Positions 1,400-51,024 of a stretch of DNA of 57,652 nucleotides are shown piece by piece. The translations under genes and the position numbers were made by a program. Under the pieces are notes generated by a model, which saw nothing but the letters and a program-made list of their open reading frames with translations, did not search any database and was not told where the DNA came from. This DNA comes from Actinomycetes bacterium. GTDB taxonomy: Bacteria; Actinomycetota; Acidimicrobiia; Acidimicrobiales; Palsa-688. Location: NCBI GenBank assembly GCA_021847945.1, contig JAJZNG010000194.1:1-57652 (forward strand), given 5' to 3'. Positions within the stretch are counted from its first letter, which is position 1; every line of letters begins with the position of its first letter.

Positions 1400-2851
1400 T
1401 TGGCAACTACCATTATCCGCCATACCAACCGCTGGTCGGTCCCCGCACTGACAGGGGCCGCCTTAGTAGCTACGGCAATAATAGCAATCACCAAAAGCCA
1501 TCTCGTCGACGTCACGATGATAGCCGGTGACCTTCTCTTCTTCGCAGCCCTACGTTATACCAGATGGCGTGGGTCTACATCCACGTCAACTTCACACACG
1601 GATCCAACCGCTCCAGACTCGAAGTCGCTACCTTTACGTCGACACCCGGCAATCGAATTATTGCTCTATCTATCGCCTGTCATATTTCTCGGAATCGCGT
1701 ATCCATTAATAGCCGGCAGGATCTCGAGCGACCACATCGGTGGAGTACCACTAACGACATTATTGTTAGGATCCTCCGTAACAGTGCCGTGGTTGACGCA
1801 AGCGGTCTGCCTGCCGCTCTACAAAGCCATCGCCGCACAGATCGCTGACGGCGACCCCCACCGTCTCCGGGATCGTGTGTGCGACGTCTGGCCGTCGGCC
1901 TTTCTACGTAGTCTTCCGACGGTCGTCGTATTTGCCATTCCGGTGGAGATCGCGACTCGCTGGTCGATCACAGCCTTAGCCGTGTATGTCTCTCTCTGCG
2001 TTCTTTATGTGGCATTCGCTCAGTCGCTGATCCTAAGCATCGTTCTTCGAGATCGTCTGCTCTGGGCCTTCGCATGGGGAAGTCTCGCCGTGACGCTTCT
2101 CATCGCGCCATCTTTGTGGTTCCTTCCTCCCCTTATCGCCATCGGAACTCAGCTAATACCGCTCCGCAAGCACCTGTACCGCATGACACGACGCCAACCG
2201 ATCGAGAGAGGTGAGGTATTCGTCGACCTCGTAAGGGGCTTGCTCCTCGGTTCGGTTCTCTGGGCTGACAAACTGCTCCTGTTCGTAAAAGACGGTAGCC
2301 ACTTCGCTGTGACTGCGATCTTCATCGGCCTCCTCCCCGCAGTGTTAGCGTACAACTACTACTTTGTTCGCTTGGCACCTCAGTTCGACTCTCACGTGGG
2401 AGATCTGCGTGCCGCCATGGAAGAAGCCGCCCATGAAAGTCTCAACGCGCATTCCAGTGCAGTGTTGCGCTACGTCGCATATTCCCTCAACCGAACTGGC
2501 CTAGCGGGTGCATCGCTGGTGCTTTTGATCACTGCACTCACCGGGCTTGTCGACCCCTCGTCGCTTGCCCTGGTTGCGACCGTGGCTGCGGCCTCTTGGC
2601 TGTTTATGATGACAACACTTGCCTGCTACAAGCTGGACTACATTGGCCAGAGGTTCACAGCACAGTTTTACAGCGGTCTTCACCTCGTGGGGTGTTTCAT
2701 CGTTTTCTCCGTAGTTGCTATTGGGCCGAGCCTCTACCTCTGGCTGATTGCGATTGACACGATTATCTTCGCCCGAGCGTTGTACAGTGTCAACGCTCAT
2801 TGGCGTTCATCCGAATATAACTTGTTCTGGCGTCATGCGACGGCCTGGTAA
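1400..2851 (+). CDS. Polytopic membrane protein, PelG-like polysaccharide exporter
   Basis: 483 residues, about 12 hydrophobic segments spread along the whole chain, including a 'SVLWADKLLLFV' stretch reminiscent of PelG, the inner-membrane partner of the PelF glycosyltransferase. The TTG start is chosen for its AAAAGGA Shine-Dalgarno 8 nt upstream. The next gene is PelF-type and its start region overlaps the end of this gene, so they form an operon. Length agrees with PelG (about 450-480). The family call rests mostly on topology and neighbour; a different flippase-like protein is possible. Confidence 0.55.
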   Translation: MATTIIRHTNRWSVPALTGAALVATAIIAITKSHLVDVTMIAGDLLFFAALRYTRWRGSTSTSTSHTDPTAPDSKSLPLRRHPAIELLLYLSPVIFLGIAYPLIAGRISSDHIGGVPLTTLLLGSSVTVPWLTQAVCLPLYKAIAAQIADGDPHRLRDRVCDVWPSAFLRSLPTVVVFAIPVEIATRWSITALAVYVSLCVLYVAFAQSLILSIVLRDRLLWAFAWGSLAVTLLIAPSLWFLPPLIAIGTQLIPLRKHLYRMTRRQPIERGEVFVDLVRGLLLGSVLWADKLLLFVKDGSHFAVTAIFIGLLPAVLAYNYYFVRLAPQFDSHVGDLRAAMEEAAHESLNAHSSAVLRYVAYSLNRTGLAGASLVLLITALTGLVDPSSLALVATVAAASWLFMMTTLACYKLDYIGQRFTAQFYSGLHLVGCFIVFSVVAIGPSLYLWLIAIDTIIFARALYSVNAHWRSSEYNLFWRHATAW

Positions 2852-2864
2852 GGAGTTCTCTGAA

Positions 2865-4640
2865 ATGTTCGCTAGCCATTTGTTCCGCTCCAAGGCCCAC
2901 GATGCCACGTATCAAGTTCCGCCACGGCCGCAGGATAGTCGAGAGGATCCGAGGGTCGTGGTGCGTGGAGGGCTACACGTGGAAGTCGATGTTGCAATAG
3001 TGGCGGAGTCGACATACCCTTTTCTCAAAGGAGGCGTATCGACGGTTATACATGATATCGTATGCGGAAACCAGGACCTCAGTTTCGGCATCATCCACAT
3101 CACGTGGGACGCTACTTCGGCACGTGAGGATCTTTATGGCATGCCAGCGAATGTAAAGTGGGTTTATCCGGTGTATCTGAGCATGCAGGAGCACCTGGAT
3201 GATTTTGTCAACGTTGATCCCTACTCGCTGAAGCTTCGATCTTCGGAGCGAACTAGGCTTGCGAATCGTATATTCGATGCGCTAGAGGCTATTTCGCAAG
3301 GTGAGAATGCCCTGGCGTTGGATCTCTACGATATCGGAATGAATCCCCGGACTCGCGAATACTCGGTCTGGACGGTGCTGGGAACGAAGGAGTTCATGAC
3401 AGTCGCGAGCAAGCGGCTCAGTGGGCTGGAGCTTTCGCTCGTCGACATGTTCTGGCTTCTGCGGGAGTTCTTCTCTTTGTCCTTCGCTATCCTTGGCGAG
3501 GACATACCGTCTGCTCGCGTATACCATGCGCACACGACCGGATACGCTGCGCTACTCGGAGCGATCGGGGCACGGCAGAACGATTCGGAGTTTCTTCTCA
3601 CCGAACACAACCTCTATGTTCGCGACACAGTCAACACGCTACTGAATCGCAGCTTAGCCTTAACCTTGAGTGGACGCGACTGGCACGAGTTCGACGTCGG
3701 TCCCCTGGAACGCTTGTGGATGGCCTGGTGGATCGAGATGGGCCGCTTCTGCTATCCCATGGCCGCGGTCGTCACGTATCTCTATCCATCGGCCATCACT
3801 GAGGCAGCTGATCTAGGTGCTCCCCTGGAGAAGGCCGTAGTGATCCCTAACGGAATGAAGGTGGACAGTTTCGACGCAGTATACGCTGAGCGTTGCCGGG
3901 CTATCGACCGGATCGAGGTTGAAGGCAGCGATCGGATGTGGAAGCTGGTTTACATCGCACGCATCGTGCCAATCAAGGGCCTCTCCGACCTGATCAGCAC
4001 GGTGGACCTGCTAGTCAGACGGGGCATAACCAATTTCACGCTTGATATTCTCGGGCCTACCGACCACCATCCTGACTACTACATGCTTTGTCGCGAGAAG
4101 GCACGAACCCTTGGAGTAGAGGACTACCTCAACTTTCGAGGTATGGTGAATGTGAGGGAGCTTCTCGGAGAGTTCGACATCTTGGTGCTACCCAGCTACA
4201 ACGAGGGCCAGCCGATCGTCGTGCTCGAGGCGATGACAGCAGGCATACCTGTGGTCGGAACCAATGTTGGTGGTATGGCACAGCTTATATCTGATCCTCT
4301 TACCACCCCCGGAGGAAGGACGTTCGATGCATGCGGTATTCTAGTCAACCCTGACTATATCGTCGGAATGGCCGACGCCCTCCAAGAGGTGATGGAATCT
4401 GCCGACGGCTACAGGCACTTCGCTGAGCAGGCGAGGGGCCGCGTAGTCAATTTCTTCCAGATTGACGACGTGATGGGCTCCTACAACAGGCTCTACAAGG
4501 AGCTCGCACGCCTCCCAGGGAACACCCTCGAAGATGCCGACCTGGACATCCCATTGGTAATCGACCTCACCGACCCCTCCGATGAGAGCACCGCCGCCCG
4601 GGAACCCAACAGGCTCGGGGTTGGATCGCCCCTCAAGTAA
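2865..4640 (+). CDS. pelF: PelF-type glycosyltransferase (GT4)
   Basis: 591 residues from ATG 2865, which has TAAGGAG 9 nt upstream; an earlier in-frame ATG at 2835 overlaps the previous gene. The N-terminus carries the PelF signature 'AESTYPFLKGGVSTVIHDI'. The C-terminal GT-B half has the nucleotide-sugar motif 'NEGQPIVVLEAMTAGIPVVG' (the two Glu of the E-x7-E type). PelF polymerises the GalNAc/GlcNAc-rich Pel polysaccharide in pseudomonads and related systems exist in Gram-positives. Cytoplasmic, predicted to work with the upstream PelG-like protein; the downstream glycosidase fits a galactosamine-containing product. Confidence 0.8.
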   Translation: MFASHLFRSKAHDATYQVPPRPQDSREDPRVVVRGGLHVEVDVAIVAESTYPFLKGGVSTVIHDIVCGNQDLSFGIIHITWDATSAREDLYGMPANVKWVYPVYLSMQEHLDDFVNVDPYSLKLRSSERTRLANRIFDALEAISQGENALALDLYDIGMNPRTREYSVWTVLGTKEFMTVASKRLSGLELSLVDMFWLLREFFSLSFAILGEDIPSARVYHAHTTGYAALLGAIGARQNDSEFLLTEHNLYVRDTVNTLLNRSLALTLSGRDWHEFDVGPLERLWMAWWIEMGRFCYPMAAVVTYLYPSAITEAADLGAPLEKAVVIPNGMKVDSFDAVYAERCRAIDRIEVEGSDRMWKLVYIARIVPIKGLSDLISTVDLLVRRGITNFTLDILGPTDHHPDYYMLCREKARTLGVEDYLNFRGMVNVRELLGEFDILVLPSYNEGQPIVVLEAMTAGIPVVGTNVGGMAQLISDPLTTPGGRTFDACGILVNPDYIVGMADALQEVMESADGYRHFAEQARGRVVNFFQIDDVMGSYNRLYKELARLPGNTLEDADLDIPLVIDLTDPSDESTAAREPNRLGVGSPLK

Positions 4641-4666
4641 ACCGGCTTGGCCGTCGATGGCGGGGG

Positions 4667-5908
4667 GTGAGGAAAACTTCCGGCGTAACCCGCATCGCAA
4701 CCTTCGTGATCCTCGCCGCCAGCGCGACCCTCAGCTGGCCTGGGACGACTGAGAGCTCCATCGTCAACCTTTCGGCTCCGGGTGTCCAGGTGCCTACTTC
4801 GATCCTGGCTTCTGCCGATTCATCCAGTACCCTGCCATGTGCTCAACAGTCGCTACTTCCCGCGTACTTTTATCCCGGGGCGGCATGGCAGAGTGCTCTC
4901 AGCAGCGCTACCCCTGGCTCCTCTATCATCGTTAATCCGTCGAGTGGGCCGGGAACAACGCCCAATGCTGCCTACCAACAAGTCATCGCAGCAGCCCGGT
5001 CCGAGGGCGTGCGCCTCTGGGGTTACATCGATACAAAGTACACTTCTACACCGCTCGGGTCGATCGATAGTCAGATCGCGGACTACCAGGAGTGGTATGG
5101 CATAACGAATATTTTCTTCGACGACGCTTCTAGCAGCGCAGGTGACCTCTCTTACTATCGCCTGGTTAGCCAGGCGGTACGCACCGCAGATCCTGGCGCA
5201 TCGGTGATGCTCAATCCTGGGGACTACCCCGACTCCTCCTATGCCAGCTTGGGGGACGTCCTGGTCGTCTTCGAAGGTGACTATCAGTCTTTCCTCCAAT
5301 CTGAGCCCCCGTCGTGGGTTAATACCCTGCCGGCCGACATGTTTGCCGCCCTTGTCTCGGCGGTACCGGCAGCGCAGATGCCCTCGGTCGTAGCTCTCTC
5401 GTCTGCGCGCAACGTCGGCTACACGTACGTGACCGACCACGTGGATGTGGCGACACTTTACGAGCAGTTGCCCAGTTACTGGACCGCCGAACTACAGGAC
5501 CTCTCTGCGAACTGTGGGTCCGGACCTACACTCACCGCCCCCTCGCAGCCGGGGTCTGCTTCAAGCAGCCAGCCGGGGACGGTAGATCCGCCAGGTCTTT
5601 CGGATCTGCCGCCGGGCGAGCCCGGCGCTCCGGCTGTACCTAGCCCTGCGTCGAACCCAGGTTCGCTCGGAGACAGTCTCGGCTACCGCATGGTGACATC
5701 TACCGGCGGAGTGCTCACCTTCGGCGACGCCGCCTTCTACGGCACCACAGCCTCAAAACACCTCAACGCCCCCATAGTCGCCATGGCCCCAACCCCCGAC
5801 GGACACGGCTACTGGCTAATCGGCGCAGACGGCGGAGTCTTCACCTTCGGCGACGCCGCCTACTACGGCACTGGCGTCTCCCTGAGGCTTCCCGTCGTCG
5901 GAATGTAA
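4667..5908 (+). CDS. Secreted spherulin-4-type glycosidase with short surface repeat
   Basis: 413 residues from GTG. An N-terminal signal-like segment ('FVILAASATLSW') precedes a spherulation-specific family 4 type domain (about residues 60-285: 'LLPAYFYPGAAW', 'IIVNPSSGPG', 'NIFFDDASS', 'VMLNPGDYP'). Members of this fold (Sph3, GH135) cut galactosaminogalactan, which suits the Pel-like neighbours. A Pro/Ser-rich linker leads to one and a half copies of the 'GYWLIGADGGVFTFGDAAYYGT' repeat seen in many Acidimicrobiia proteins, ending abruptly at 'RLPVVGM'. The array is usually longer, so the C-terminus may be truncated. It starts 26 nt after pelF. Confidence 0.7.
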   Translation: MRKTSGVTRIATFVILAASATLSWPGTTESSIVNLSAPGVQVPTSILASADSSSTLPCAQQSLLPAYFYPGAAWQSALSSATPGSSIIVNPSSGPGTTPNAAYQQVIAAARSEGVRLWGYIDTKYTSTPLGSIDSQIADYQEWYGITNIFFDDASSSAGDLSYYRLVSQAVRTADPGASVMLNPGDYPDSSYASLGDVLVVFEGDYQSFLQSEPPSWVNTLPADMFAALVSAVPAAQMPSVVALSSARNVGYTYVTDHVDVATLYEQLPSYWTAELQDLSANCGSGPTLTAPSQPGSASSSQPGTVDPPGLSDLPPGEPGAPAVPSPASNPGSLGDSLGYRMVTSTGGVLTFGDAAFYGTTASKHLNAPIVAMAPTPDGHGYWLIGADGGVFTFGDAAYYGTGVSLRLPVVGM

Positions 5909-46081: not shown

Positions 46082-47407
46082 CTAGCGGATATCGGATGCT
46101 GCGCTAACCGTATTGCCACCGTTCCTCTTGGACTGGTACAAAGCCACGTCCGCCGCCTTCATCAGCGCGTCGGCATCCCGGCCCGCGGAGGGGTAGACAG
46201 CCAATCCAATCGAGGTCTTCTGCTCCCAACCAGGTGCGAGCTCACTTGCGCATCCGGCCACGCACCCCGCCACGATCGCTTCACCAACACGCAGGCCGTC
46301 CCTCTCGCTCATCCCGGGGCACACGACCATGAACTCCTCCCCTCCCATCCTTATGACAGTGTCCGCCTTTCGGACACTGCCCTGGAGGAACTCGGAGAAT
46401 CTCCGCAGGACGTCGTCGCCAGCCGCGTGACCGAACGTGTCGTTCGCCTGCTTGAAGTTGTCAAGATCCAAGTAGATAAGACACAGGTAGTCATCCGACA
46501 TCTCCGCCAGCTTGAGAACCCGGTTCAGAATCGAGATGCCGTGGCGACGGTTGGCGACGCCGGTGAGCGAGTCGGTCTGAGCCTCGGCGAGGAGGCGCTG
46601 GCGTTCCGCCGCGCGGGTCATCGCAGCCGCAAGCAGACCGATCATGTCGGTCACGGTCTTTTCGTCCTCCGGCTGGGGGGGGACCGCCCAAGCCACGCCA
46701 GCCTCGATCGTGCCATCGGGCAGCACCAAAGCCGGCAGCTGCTCTTGAGGATCCAAACCTGAAGCGAGAGTTATATAGCCTCCCACCGCGGGGTGCGTTA
46801 TTCGCAGGTTGACGCCCGACAGCTTCGGAAGGTAGGACATGGCCTCTACGAGGTCTCGAAGGTCGGGCCCGGTCGGCTCGTCCCCGAGACCGTGTATAAG
46901 CCTCGCCGCGTCCCCGAGCGCCGCCTGCCGGCGAATACGCTCGGACTCCGACACTATGAGGAGACCGGAAGCCACCTGCTCGCTGACGGCGTCGACCAAT
47001 TCCTGAGATCCGACGTCAGCTAGCTCGAAAAGGCATGTCAGGTCCCCCGAGCCCTGGTCGCCGAGAGCCAGCGGGCTGCGAACCGCTTCTTTAGGAACAC
47101 TCGCTGATAACTTCCCGGCTGGAGCGTCTAACTTCCCGGCTGGAGCGTCGCCGCGCTCGGCTGCTATCGGTGGCACGCCGGCTATCTCACAGGTGAGCTG
47201 ACTCCACTGCACGGGAAGAAACTGGTCGACGATGGAGATCGCCGCCTCGGAGTAGGTGGAAACGTCAGTCACGTGAGCGGAAAGCCGAGCCAGCTCGAGG
47301 AGGCACTCGGTGTGTACTAGCCGGATCATCAACTGCGCCCTGTCTGACTCGCGGAACTCTGCCAGGCGTTCGGCTTCGCGTTCGGCGAGCGCTCTCAACG
47401 CGCTCAT
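46082..47407 (-). CDS. GGDEF-domain diguanylate cyclase
   Basis: 441 residues from ATG 47407, overlapping the HDOD stop (ATGA). The N-terminal 270 residues are a GAF-like/unknown sensor with no transmembrane helix; the C-terminal GGDEF domain has 'DSLTGVANRR', 'YLDLDNFKQAND' and the active GGEEF motif. The inhibitory site RxxD ('RKAD') lies five residues before GGEEF, so product inhibition is likely. A 21-bp tandem duplication encodes 'DAPAGKLDAPAGKL' in the sensor part. Confidence 0.9.
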   Translation of the reverse strand: MSALRALAEREAERLAEFRESDRAQLMIRLVHTECLLELARLSAHVTDVSTYSEAAISIVDQFLPVQWSQLTCEIAGVPPIAAERGDAPAGKLDAPAGKLSASVPKEAVRSPLALGDQGSGDLTCLFELADVGSQELVDAVSEQVASGLLIVSESERIRRQAALGDAARLIHGLGDEPTGPDLRDLVEAMSYLPKLSGVNLRITHPAVGGYITLASGLDPQEQLPALVLPDGTIEAGVAWAVPPQPEDEKTVTDMIGLLAAAMTRAAERQRLLAEAQTDSLTGVANRRHGISILNRVLKLAEMSDDYLCLIYLDLDNFKQANDTFGHAAGDDVLRRFSEFLQGSVRKADTVIRMGGEEFMVVCPGMSERDGLRVGEAIVAGCVAGCASELAPGWEQKTSIGLAVYPSAGRDADALMKAADVALYQSKRNGGNTVSAASDIR

Positions 47408-48222
47408 ATATCCGCTCCGAGCCGGGTACTGAACCGGGCGAAGGACTTCCGGGTTGCTCGAAGCACTTGGGCGGGCTTCACCCAGAGGCGGCATTCGTCG
47501 ATGACCTCCTCAAGAGGCCTGGAATCCTCGTGGCAGGAAAGTCCGACGGCCTCTGCTACGGCCGCCTCCCCGATGGCAACCGCTTTCGTCAGCTTCCCGG
47601 CGCCTACGAGGGGAAGGTGGTGGTCTCTCACGGCTTCGACGAGGCTCTTGGGGAAACCCCACTTGGCGACGGCAGCGGCGCCCGCCTCGGGGTGGTCGGT
47701 GCCGAAAGCCGACCGCTCGTGCTCGAGGAGTCTCTCCCCGCCACGACGCACCACGGTGGCATAGAGAGCTGGGTCGCGAAGGTGCAGCAGGACGGCTCCG
47801 ATGTCGTGGAGCAACCCGGCGGTGAAAGCCTCCCCAGCCCCCACCTCCAGCTCAGCTGCGACGGTCGACGCCGCAGCGCCGACCTCCATGGCGTGAGGCC
47901 AGAAGGAGTCAGGACCGAGATCCACGCCGTCGGATAGCAGCGGGAACGCGGCCGCGGCGGTTATCGCTTGGACCGCCGACGAGCCGAGCATCATCACGGC
48001 TCTGGTCGCAGAAGCGACCCCTCCCCTAGTTCCGTAGGCGGCCGAGTTCGCCATCCGAAGCACCCGGGCGGAAAGTACCGGGTCTATCTCGACGATCTCG
48101 GCGAACTGCGACAGCGAAGCATCGGGATCGTCGATCAACTCGAACAGTCGGGTCGCCGTCGATGGCCTGATAGGCAACCTACGAGCCAGCTCGTCCCAGT
48201 CAACCGAAGCGCCCTTACCCAC
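47404..48222 (-). CDS. HDOD-domain signalling protein
   Basis: 272 residues from GTG. 'LPIRPSTATRLFELIDDPDASLSQFAEIVEIDPVLSARVLRMANSAAYG' and 'FTAGLLHDIGAVLL' (the HD-like pair) identify an HDOD domain, a regulatory relative of HD-GYP that often lacks phosphodiesterase activity. Translationally coupled to the diguanylate cyclase, so both likely act in one cyclic-di-GMP-related circuit. Confidence 0.88.
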   Translation of the reverse strand: MGKGASVDWDELARRLPIRPSTATRLFELIDDPDASLSQFAEIVEIDPVLSARVLRMANSAAYGTRGGVASATRAVMMLGSSAVQAITAAAAFPLLSDGVDLGPDSFWPHAMEVGAAASTVAAELEVGAGEAFTAGLLHDIGAVLLHLRDPALYATVVRRGGERLLEHERSAFGTDHPEAGAAAVAKWGFPKSLVEAVRDHHLPLVGAGKLTKAVAIGEAAVAEAVGLSCHEDSRPLEEVIDECRLWVKPAQVLRATRKSFARFSTRLGADI

Positions 48223-48247: not shown

Positions 48248-49318
48248 CTAAGCAACCGTAGCTTTTCGTGGCCTGCTACCACGGGGGTGGCGGTCCCGCC
48301 CGTTTGCCGCAGCGGAACGGCTCTCGGTTGCGGCGACGTCCGCGACCCTGGCCAGCCTTCTGAGCACTGTCCTGACGAGAACCTGAGCAAGCCGGTCCCC
48401 AAGCGACGGCGCCTCACCCGCCGGCGGCACGCCGGACCCCAAAGAAGAGGCCGGCGCGGCTGATACGTCAAGTCGGGGCAGTCGTATCCTGGCTCCGGCG
48501 CGCAACTCGCAGCGCTCCGGGTCCACGGCGACAACCGCCATCGAGATCTCACCATGAGCGCTCATCCCGCCTGGCATGGAAGCTTCGAACGAGATACCTA
48601 CCTGGGCACTGCCTTCTCCGCTTCGGGATCCCGGAATGTCTGAGTCTTCGGCTCGGCTGAGAGAAGCCGAAGACACGACGTGCACCGGCAGCCACGGCCG
48701 TGCGTCCACGACGATCCTGTTGCGCAGCTCTTCGACCTCGTGAAAAGCGCCGGCTAAAACCTCGGTCAGAACCTGCTCTCGTCTGAGAACTGCCAGAACC
48801 TCGGAGAGTCCGGCCTCGACTTGGATCGAGTCAGCTACGGCGACGCTTGGATCAGCTGACCTGTGAGAGTCCTCCGGGCGGCGCACCCTGCCGGCTTCTA
48901 TGTCCTCGTCGCGGCGAACTAGGTCGGCCAGACTCGTCGAACGCAGAACCTCGCGAAGGGCTTCGGTCGCGGAACGCCACGTCTCGTGCAGTGGGCACAC
49001 GGCGTCCCACCGGCAAGGCCCTTCTCCAAGGGCGCATCTCTCGGCTCGCAGCGGCCCCTCCCCGGCTTCGACCACCTCGACGAGGCTGACCTGCTCGGGG
49101 GGAGAGGCGAGACGGTACCCGCCGTCCTTGCCGGCCTTGGAGGTCGCGAGACCAGCTCGTACCAGGTCGGCGAGGATCTGCGACGCGAAAGTCTGGGGCA
49201 CCCCCATCTCGGCTACCACTTCGCGGATTTTGCGCGCTTCGCCGCTCGGGTAGGCCCTGGCGAGCGAGAGCGCCGAGCGGACCACGTAGTCCCCCCTCTT
49301 CGACAACGTCATATTCAC
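48248..49318 (-). CDS. Rrf2-family iron-sulfur regulator with C-terminal extension
   Basis: 356 residues; Rrf2 regulators are normally about 150. N-terminal winged helix ('LSKRGDYVVRSALSLAR', 'VPQTFASQILADLVRAGLATSKAGKDGGYRLA') followed by 'RCALGEGPCRWDAVCPLHETW', three Cys as in NsrR/IscR-type cluster ligands. The remaining ~200 residues do not belong to Rrf2; they look like a beta-rich SRPBCC-like domain but this is weak. Divergent from the electron-transfer genes; palindrome in between is the probable operator. Start GTG 49318 or ATG 49312. Confidence 0.85.
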   Translation of the reverse strand: MNMTLSKRGDYVVRSALSLARAYPSGEARKIREVVAEMGVPQTFASQILADLVRAGLATSKAGKDGGYRLASPPEQVSLVEVVEAGEGPLRAERCALGEGPCRWDAVCPLHETWRSATEALREVLRSTSLADLVRRDEDIEAGRVRRPEDSHRSADPSVAVADSIQVEAGLSEVLAVLRREQVLTEVLAGAFHEVEELRNRIVVDARPWLPVHVVSSASLSRAEDSDIPGSRSGEGSAQVGISFEASMPGGMSAHGEISMAVVAVDPERCELRAGARIRLPRLDVSAAPASSLGSGVPPAGEAPSLGDRLAQVLVRTVLRRLARVADVAATESRSAAANGRDRHPRGSRPRKATVA

Positions 49319-49324
49319 AACAAT

Positions 49325-49369
49325 AAGTATAGCTCAGGACTTGACATATGTCACTACCTTAGTTATTCT
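49325..49369. promoter_or_regulatory. Divergent promoters around palindromic Rrf2 operator
   Basis: Perfect palindrome TGACATATGTCA at 49342-49353. Rightward promoter: TTGACA, 17-nt spacer, TATTCT. Leftward promoter: GTGACA, 17-nt spacer, TATACT. Both -35 boxes lie in the palindrome, so one bound dimer would block both genes. Seen directly; function inferred. Confidence 0.75.
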
Positions 49370-49422
49370 TATCAACGTTGAGCGTCACACCCTAGGAAGA
49401 GTGTTCGAAGAAAGGTACCTAG

Positions 49423-51024
49423 ATGACGATCGTCGCCCCCGATGACCAGCGTCCCCAAGCAACCCAAGCGCCACCTCTGGCACGCCCCGCTCCAGTGGCC
49501 GTCAGGCTGCGGCCCCCAAGCCGCGAGGGTCTAGTCGAGCACTTCGCCCCGACCGACCCTCCTCGCTCCTGGGACCTCACACGCAACCCACGGGTAGCGA
49601 AGCTCGTCCGTAGCCGCAAGTTCCAGTTCCTTTTGATCCTGCCGAACCAGATCATCTTCTGGACGGTCATCTTCCTAGGGATCTTGGGCACGGTAGTGCC
49701 CGGCATCAACTTCGCCACCGCAATCACTTGGTACATCTGGTTCTGCCTCGTCTTCGTCTTGATGGTCGTCGTCGGACGCGGCTGGTGTGCGATGTGCCCG
49801 TTCGGCGGGTTCGCCGAGTGGCTCCAACGCCGCACGTTCTGGCAGCGCACACAAAAGACCCTCGGACTCGGGAGGAAGCTGCCTGAACCGGTCGCCCGCT
49901 ACGGGCTGCTCCTGTCGGTCGGCACGTTCGTGGCACTGACTTGGATCGAGGAGCGCTTCAACATCGCCGGGCCCGGCAATCCCGCAGACACCGGCTTGAT
50001 GGTCGTCGGGATCGTGGCGAGCGCCGTGGCCGTGTTCCTAGTGTTCGAGAGGCGCACTTTCTGCCGTTACCTCTGTCCGCTGTCGGCTCTGATCGGCAGC
50101 GTCGGGGCGATGGGATCAGCCGCCGGGTTCCGCACCAGGGACCGGGAGGTATGTCTCACCTGCCAGACCAAGGACTGCATGCGAGGCGGCGAGGAAGGCT
50201 ACGGCTGCCCCTGGTACACCTGGCCTGGCAGCGCCGACTCGAACCTGACCTGCGGGCTGTGCAGCGAATGCTACAAGGGCTGCCCCTCCGACAACGTCGG
50301 ACTCTTCATCCAGCCCCCGCTCAAGTCGGTGATAGCCCCGCAGAGGCGCCGGGCCGACGTCGCCTGGTCCGTAGCGTTCCTTTTCGGATTGGTCCTATAC
50401 CAGCAGATCAACTCCACCAGCGCGTACGCGAGCCTGGACAGCTGGCTCAACCGGGTCACCCACATCGGTCCCTACCCCAACCCCGTCGACTACCTGGGCA
50501 TGATCGTAGGTCTGGGGTTCGCAGTAGCTGGGCTCGCCTGGGCGGCGAGCAGGCTCGTCATGAAGGACCCAGCCCGGCTTCCCGTCACCGACAGGCTGGC
50601 GGCGCTTGCCCGCTCCAAGTCCTTCGTGGACCGTGCCAGCCAGTTCCGCTCCTTCTTCGTACCCGTCGCCTACGGCCTCATCCCCGTCGTAGGGTCGGAC
50701 TTCCTGGCCCGCCAGTTGCCGAAGTTCTTCAAGCATTCGCTGCGCATCATCCCGGCGATCGGCTCGTGGTTCGGCGCCGGCTCCACCCACTCAAGCCTCT
50801 ACAACACCCACATCCTCACCAACCCCCAGATCGTGATCGCCCAACTGGTGGTCGTCGGCCTCGGGATGGTCGCGTCGCTGTGGGCCACCCACAAGATTGC
50901 GTTGAGAGACCTCAGGCCTTCCGCAGCCCGGCCGATCGCCGCCGAGGTGAGCGGGATCGCCATGGTCCTCGTGTCAGCCGGAGTGGCCGGGTTCTTGTAC
51001 GTGATCATGCACGCCGCTTCTTGA
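49423..51024 (+). CDS. NapH/NosR-like polytopic 4Fe-4S membrane protein
   Basis: 533 residues, about six to eight helices. Cys motifs 'GRGWCAMCPFGG' and 'RRTFCRYLCPLSALIG' are the NapH/NosR/CcoG-type signatures, followed by 'CLTCQTKDCMRGG' and 'CGLCSECYKGCP' ferredoxin-like clusters. It passes electrons through the membrane to or from a periplasmic or quinone partner. SD GAAAGG before the ATG. First gene of the Rrf2-controlled operon; partner gene follows 20 nt on. Confidence 0.8.
   Translation: MTIVAPDDQRPQATQAPPLARPAPVAVRLRPPSREGLVEHFAPTDPPRSWDLTRNPRVAKLVRSRKFQFLLILPNQIIFWTVIFLGILGTVVPGINFATAITWYIWFCLVFVLMVVVGRGWCAMCPFGGFAEWLQRRTFWQRTQKTLGLGRKLPEPVARYGLLLSVGTFVALTWIEERFNIAGPGNPADTGLMVVGIVASAVAVFLVFERRTFCRYLCPLSALIGSVGAMGSAAGFRTRDREVCLTCQTKDCMRGGEEGYGCPWYTWPGSADSNLTCGLCSECYKGCPSDNVGLFIQPPLKSVIAPQRRRADVAWSVAFLFGLVLYQQINSTSAYASLDSWLNRVTHIGPYPNPVDYLGMIVGLGFAVAGLAWAASRLVMKDPARLPVTDRLAALARSKSFVDRASQFRSFFVPVAYGLIPVVGSDFLARQLPKFFKHSLRIIPAIGSWFGAGSTHSSLYNTHILTNPQIVIAQLVVVGLGMVASLWATHKIALRDLRPSAARPIAAEVSGIAMVLVSAGVAGFLYVIMHAAS

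Follow-up and report, generated by a model that had tools for sequence, protein, structure and literature searches.

The locus

The window, i.e. the whole stretch of 57,652 nucleotides that was analysed, carries an Rrf2-family regulator gene (hereafter rrf2-ext) that is divergent from two genes encoding iron-sulfur proteins. The genes and the domains of the regulator are the following:

48248–49318, minus strand: rrf2-ext, Rrf2-family regulator with a predicted C-terminal START/SRPBCC-like domain, 356 aa, GTG start
48899–49312, minus strand: Rrf2 domain, residues 3–140 of rrf2-ext
48299–48856, minus strand: predicted START/SRPBCC-like domain, residues ~155–340, beta-alpha-alpha-beta4-alpha
49423–51024, plus strand: NapH-like polytopic 4Fe-4S membrane protein, 533 aa
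51045–52802, plus strand: ferredoxin-GltD fusion, NAD(P)H/FAD oxidoreductase with four 4Cys motifs, 585 aa

The first-pass annotation had named this iron-sulfur electron-transfer pair as the target of the regulator, and the comparison of orthologs agrees with it: the napH-like and ferredoxin-GltD genes adjoin the regulator gene at most ortholog loci, usually in divergent orientation. The NapH-like protein contains 13 cysteines, each conserved at a level of 96% or more among orthologs, and in the GltD fusion none of the four 4Cys motifs varies. Judging from their families, the two proteins would form a membrane-linked NAD(P)H electron-transfer unit. Downstream of rrf2-ext lie an HDOD-like ORF (47404–48222, minus strand) and a GGDEF-like ORF (46082–47494, minus strand), both named from reading of the sequence; an HDOD gene also follows rrf2 in the sister species and at one other locus (L130).

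The Rrf2 domain and its putative cluster

The N-terminal part of rrf2-ext matches PF02082 over residues 5–135 (E = 3.5e-30; 105.3 bits for a cut-off of 30), and the protein scores 103.2 bits with TIGR00738, above the cut-off of 73.3, which places it in the Rrf2 superfamily. With the four equivalog models IscR, NsrR, RirA and CymR, the scores are far below the cut-offs (e.g. 65.1 vs. 207.55 bits for IscR and 47.8 vs. 182 bits for NsrR). The nearest solved chains by sequence are those of T. potens IscR and S. coelicolor NsrR (ScNsrR). As in Fe-S Rrf2 regulators, three conserved cysteines are found towards the C-terminal end of the Rrf2 domain. Among 24 orthologs, C95, C108, H111 and D10 are invariant, and C102 is conserved in at least 90%. 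C95, C102 and C108 align with the cysteines of ScNsrR, and D10 aligns with its Asp8, reported as a cluster ligand (PMC5411485). These residues suggest that rrf2-ext may bind an Fe-S cluster.

NsrR of Streptomyces coelicolor, a [4Fe-4S] NO-sensing regulator, is also similar to rrf2-ext in its Rrf2 fold and in the size of its operator, 23 bp (PMC9338935), which is that of the candidate site described below. The regulator could then be a pure NsrR-type sensor, in which D10 and the three cysteines would hold a [4Fe-4S] cluster; its destruction by NO would release napH-gltD and a diiron gene (see below) in a nitrosative-stress response. We nevertheless consider this unlikely: besides the low score with the NsrR equivalog model, the C-x6-C-x5-C spacing is unlike that of ScNsrR, the operator sequence and the targets differ, the latter not being known NO-detoxification genes, and the extra domain is left unexplained.

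A START/SRPBCC-like extension

The additional domain noticed in the first pass is real and conserved, but its dimensions have to be revised: the extension covers about 216 residues (141–356) rather than 200, with a folded domain at residues ~155–340 followed by a fast-evolving tail. A Pfam scan of the window's own rrf2-ext identified no family beyond the Rrf2 part. The full-length AlphaFold model, built with 24 orthologs, has a pLDDT of 82.5, and the isolated extension domain, modelled alone, has a pLDDT of 88 and a pTM of 0.83. In the full-length model, a strand (159–167) and two helices (171–178 and 181–202) are followed by four strands (213–222, 237–247, 253–266 and 269–279) and a long C-terminal helix (306–340), i.e. 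the helix-grip topology (beta-alpha-alpha, antiparallel sheet, long C-terminal helix).

A Foldseek search of the PDB with the full-length model returned Rrf2 proteins at the top (best structural matches: RsrR 6hsm and IscR 4cic), then START-type proteins, namely 2pcs, the ZhuI aromatase/cyclase and PYR1. The isolated domain again matched START-type proteins, including the catalytic domains of Rieske oxygenases. These are matches of modest TM-score (for 2pcs, 0.41/0.54), some of them with a large rmsd. When orthologous extension domains were scanned singly, 16 out of 36 matched PF10604 (best E = 1.8e-5); the match of the first member covers the entire profile, although its score of 20 bits is below the gathering score of 27.4. 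A profile search of PDB sequences with the extension returned only fimbrial chains, which we judged to be a composition artefact.

Because of the AlphaFold models, the Foldseek matches and the weak PF10604 matches, we describe the extension as START/SRPBCC-like with a reduced sheet, a predicted ligand-binding fold. It shares with SRPBCC/START proteins (PF10604 Polyketide_cyc2, 2pcs, the abscisic-acid receptor PYR1) the beta-alpha-alpha-beta(n)-alpha topology and the long C-terminal helix, but differs from them in its fusion to an Rrf2 DNA-binding domain and in its fewer strands. As its sheet lacks some strands of the complete START barrel, any functional pocket is a putative one.

Conservation, origin and losses of the extension

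Orthologs were collected from a search of 61 genomes and from a search of a genome collection. The latter gave 79 loci, nearly all from actinobacterial or Acidimicrobiales MAGs, plus Aciditerrimonas ferrireducens MV1. The Rrf2/START-like fusion is kept at about 80 loci of Acidimicrobiales, in several families, and most full-length orthologs carry the extension. To our knowledge, the characterised Rrf2 regulators (IscR, NsrR, RirA, RsrR, CymR) are small and sense via a cluster or a cysteine; IscR and RsrR, which share the Rrf2 fold with rrf2-ext, have about 160 aa and no extra domain. Our search of the published literature on Rrf2 proteins with SRPBCC or additional domains found no description of such a fusion. 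The earlier remark that the extension is unusual for Rrf2 proteins is thus borne out, yet it is a clade-wide architecture and no quirk of one genome.

Solo homologs of the extension domain are widespread in the class and the phylum according to a domain profile search, whereas, among the phylum matches inspected for a fusion, those outside the regulator's own family were confined to other families of this order. The simplest reading is that a solo actinobacterial domain was fused to an Rrf2 regulator within Acidimicrobiales. The window's genome has its own solo relative of the extension (C139:12965–13450, L161; E = 2.9e-30).

The START-like domain might be no sensor at all. It could stabilise the dimer, tether the regulator to a protein or a membrane lipid, or be a decaying relic, the Fe-S cluster alone ensuring the regulation. 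Between the window and the sister species, dN/dS is 0.02 for the Rrf2 part, 0.17 for the extension and 0.64 for the last 26 residues; the rate for the extension is about eight times that of the Rrf2 part, and the length of the extension is variable. It also lacks some strands of a full START domain and was lost in several lineages. On the other hand, it was kept at about 80 loci in several families with invariant residues (H, R, D-x-E-R), and a dN/dS near 0.2 points to purifying selection. A non-sensory role is for these reasons possible but somewhat unlikely, and the extension may well provide a second sensory input.

As several lineages lost the extension, some together with the cysteines, it is not required by every copy. 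Six loci (L103, L105, L108, L109, L110 and L116) have a short napH-divergent Rrf2 copy of 176–210 aa. In the four that were read out (L103, L105, L108 and L116), the START-like domain is missing, as is the CPLHETW/cysteine region; at loci with such a short copy, a second, full-length rrf2-ext copy lies downstream of gltD. At L038/L088 (G006) and L118, a stop soon after the DSHR linker shortens the extension, while L121 lost the extension and kept the cysteines.

Promoters and the 12-bp palindrome

The intergenic region contains the following proposed elements:

49341–49369, plus strand: napH promoter TTGACA-N17-TATTCT (−35 at 49341–49346, −10 at 49364–49369)
49326–49331, minus strand: rrf2 −10 TATACT, 7 nt before the GTG
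49342–49353: 12-bp palindrome TGACATATGTCA, the operator proposed in the first-pass annotation

The rrf2 −35 would be GTGACA on the minus strand (49349–49354), with N17 to TATACT. TTGAC is present in all 43 ortholog promoters, with TAnnnT at 16–18 bp in 32 of them, and a TAnnnT ending 6 or 7 nt before the rrf2 start was counted 39 times in the 43 promoters. Because the −10 ends so close to the start codon, the rrf2 mRNA is probably leaderless.

As had been stated, the palindrome does lie on both −35 boxes, overlapping 5 of the 6 bases of each. However, this perfect 12-bp palindrome is highly implausible as an operator. With up to 2 mismatches, TGACATATGTCA occurs in only 2 out of 43 non-redundant orthologous promoters, and the sister species has TGACTTATGTCA at this position, a single substitution that breaks the palindrome. 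The genome search suggested by the earlier annotation yielded two exact copies of the 12-mer, the other one (C126) being beside an unrelated amidase-like ORF. The palindrome is also shorter than the 23–39 bp operators of characterised Rrf2 proteins (PMC9338935). We rejected it as unconserved, and interpret it as two divergent −35 hexamers meeting each other.

A conserved 23-bp dyad

The conservation that the 12-mer lacks is displayed by another site. From the 43 promoters, we obtained the consensus dyad ACGTnnAGT-N5-ACTnnACGT (23 bp), usually present in two copies per promoter. In the window, these are:

49325–49347: O1, candidate dyad AAGTATAGCTCAGGACTTGACAT, 3 mismatches, covering the rrf2 −10 and the napH −35
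49375–49397: O2, candidate dyad ACGTTGAGCGTCACACCCTAGGA, 4 mismatches, at the predicted napH start, supported by its position in orthologs

Motif search from random starts first gave a 14-bp palindrome, ACTnnACGTnnAGT, with sites at fixed distances of 8, 27, 61 and 80 nt from the start codon. It was rejected because it belongs to the 23-bp dyad. Widening the motif from 14 to 23 positions raised the likelihood score from 401 to 775 and yielded AcgTnaagT-N5-ActtnAcgT (23 bp). Genome-wide, ACTnnACGTnnAGT is barely more common than its control (47 vs. 39).

The dyad was counted as ACGTNNAGT-N5-ACTNNACGT in the 43 non-redundant orthologous promoters and in shuffled sets. With up to 2 mismatches, 46 sites were found in 35 of the 43 promoters, against 0.08 per shuffled set; with up to 3 mismatches, there were 73 sites in 42 of the 43 promoters (shuffled sets: 0.4). 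At this last threshold, the spacer of 5 gave the 73 sites and other spacers gave 0–29. The pattern was derived from the very promoters in which it was counted, and three controls therefore matter. Firstly, a motif trained without the window's genus ranks O1 first in the 57.6-kb window (13.99 bits, the next site having 10.49), as does a motif trained with this genus included. Secondly, among 39 non-divergent rrf2-ext promoters outside the training set, 10 contain the dyad with up to 3 mismatches, for an expectation of 0.03. Thirdly, the dyad marks the promoter of another gene family (see below). O2 scores weakly in the window (rank 60–70), and is weak in this genus.

In the orthologs, the centre of O1 is mostly located 16.5–17.5 nt upstream of the rrf2 start, and the distance between the centres of O1 and O2 is about 50 bp, with a mean of 51.5 and a mode of 53 (n = 30). 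The idea of one operator for both divergent promoters, raised in the first pass, can be retained with a change of site: one candidate operator appears to serve both, but it is O1, whose centre is about 12 bp from that of TGACATATGTCA and which spans the rrf2 −10 and the napH −35. Such positions, with O2 over the napH start, are typical of repression, and it is quite unlikely that the regulator activates napH-gltD instead. Activation would be compatible with the usual pairing of the dyads about 50 bp apart, an arrangement that is not exclusive to repressors, and IscR is known as a dual regulator.

Candidate sites elsewhere in the genomes

Genome-wide scans were done by pattern matching. Dyads with up to 1 mismatch are few in 40 relatives and mostly found at napH loci. 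One of them (G002, contig C100) lies upstream of a gene encoding an AurF/R2-like diiron protein. In the window's genome (G000), a homologous dyad with 2 mismatches (C65:248–270) precedes the same diiron gene, most of which is on contig C16 (C16:9975–10976). The dyad overlaps an apparent −35 and is conserved between the window's genome and the sister species (L188). In A. ferrireducens and at two other loci, the diiron gene is preceded by a weaker dyad, with 3 mismatches, but this does not hold for every locus with the gene. The diiron gene is near the rrf2-napH locus in several genomes; with any match at 1e-30 in only 16 out of 61 genomes, it is absent from most of those searched.

Further dyads with 2 mismatches in the window's genome are on contigs C120, C122 and C152, and their number, like that of the exact 12-mer, is near the control count. 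A dyad with 1 mismatch was also observed in another genome (L190:599–621; G015, contig C19), near a molybdopterin oxidoreductase gene (2475–5429).

Proposed regulation

The reading that we favour, and hold to be fairly probable, is that rrf2-ext encodes a local, autoregulatory repressor of its own gene and of napH-gltD with two inputs, a putative Fe-S cluster and a ligand of the START-like pocket. An NsrR/IscR-type Rrf2 dimer, probably with an Fe-S cluster, would bind the 23-bp dyads. Its binding to O1 would make the rrf2 −10 and the napH −35 inaccessible at once, and the other copy of the dyad, located at the napH start some 50 bp further on, would tighten the control of napH-gltD. The START/SRPBCC-like domain, presumably recruited from the solo actinobacterial family, would most likely bind a hydrophobic small molecule, and this binding would modulate the binding to DNA. 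The electron-transfer pair and, where present, the AurF/R2-like diiron enzyme would be switched by the two inputs. More tentatively, and with a clearly lower probability, this single chain combining Fe-S cluster and START receptor may control a NapH-like/ferredoxin-GltD unit feeding the diiron enzyme, the ligand being a substrate or product of the pathway.

A clade-wide START-like fusion would give the Rrf2 family a second sensory input, and would probably place the electron-transfer pair under the joint control of a redox or iron signal and of another chemical signal. ECF41/SigG1-type sigma factors are likewise bacterial transcription factors with a fused C-terminal small alpha+beta domain, but the regulator family differs and their domain has a SnoaL-like fold (PMC3426412, PMC7730460). 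With the conserved 23-bp operator, the regulon could be read in uncultured acidophilic actinobacteria, and there is now a lead on the function of the unstudied NapH/ferredoxin-GltD/diiron system. This system is testable, because a named strain, Aciditerrimonas ferrireducens MV1, has the same arrangement (L062).
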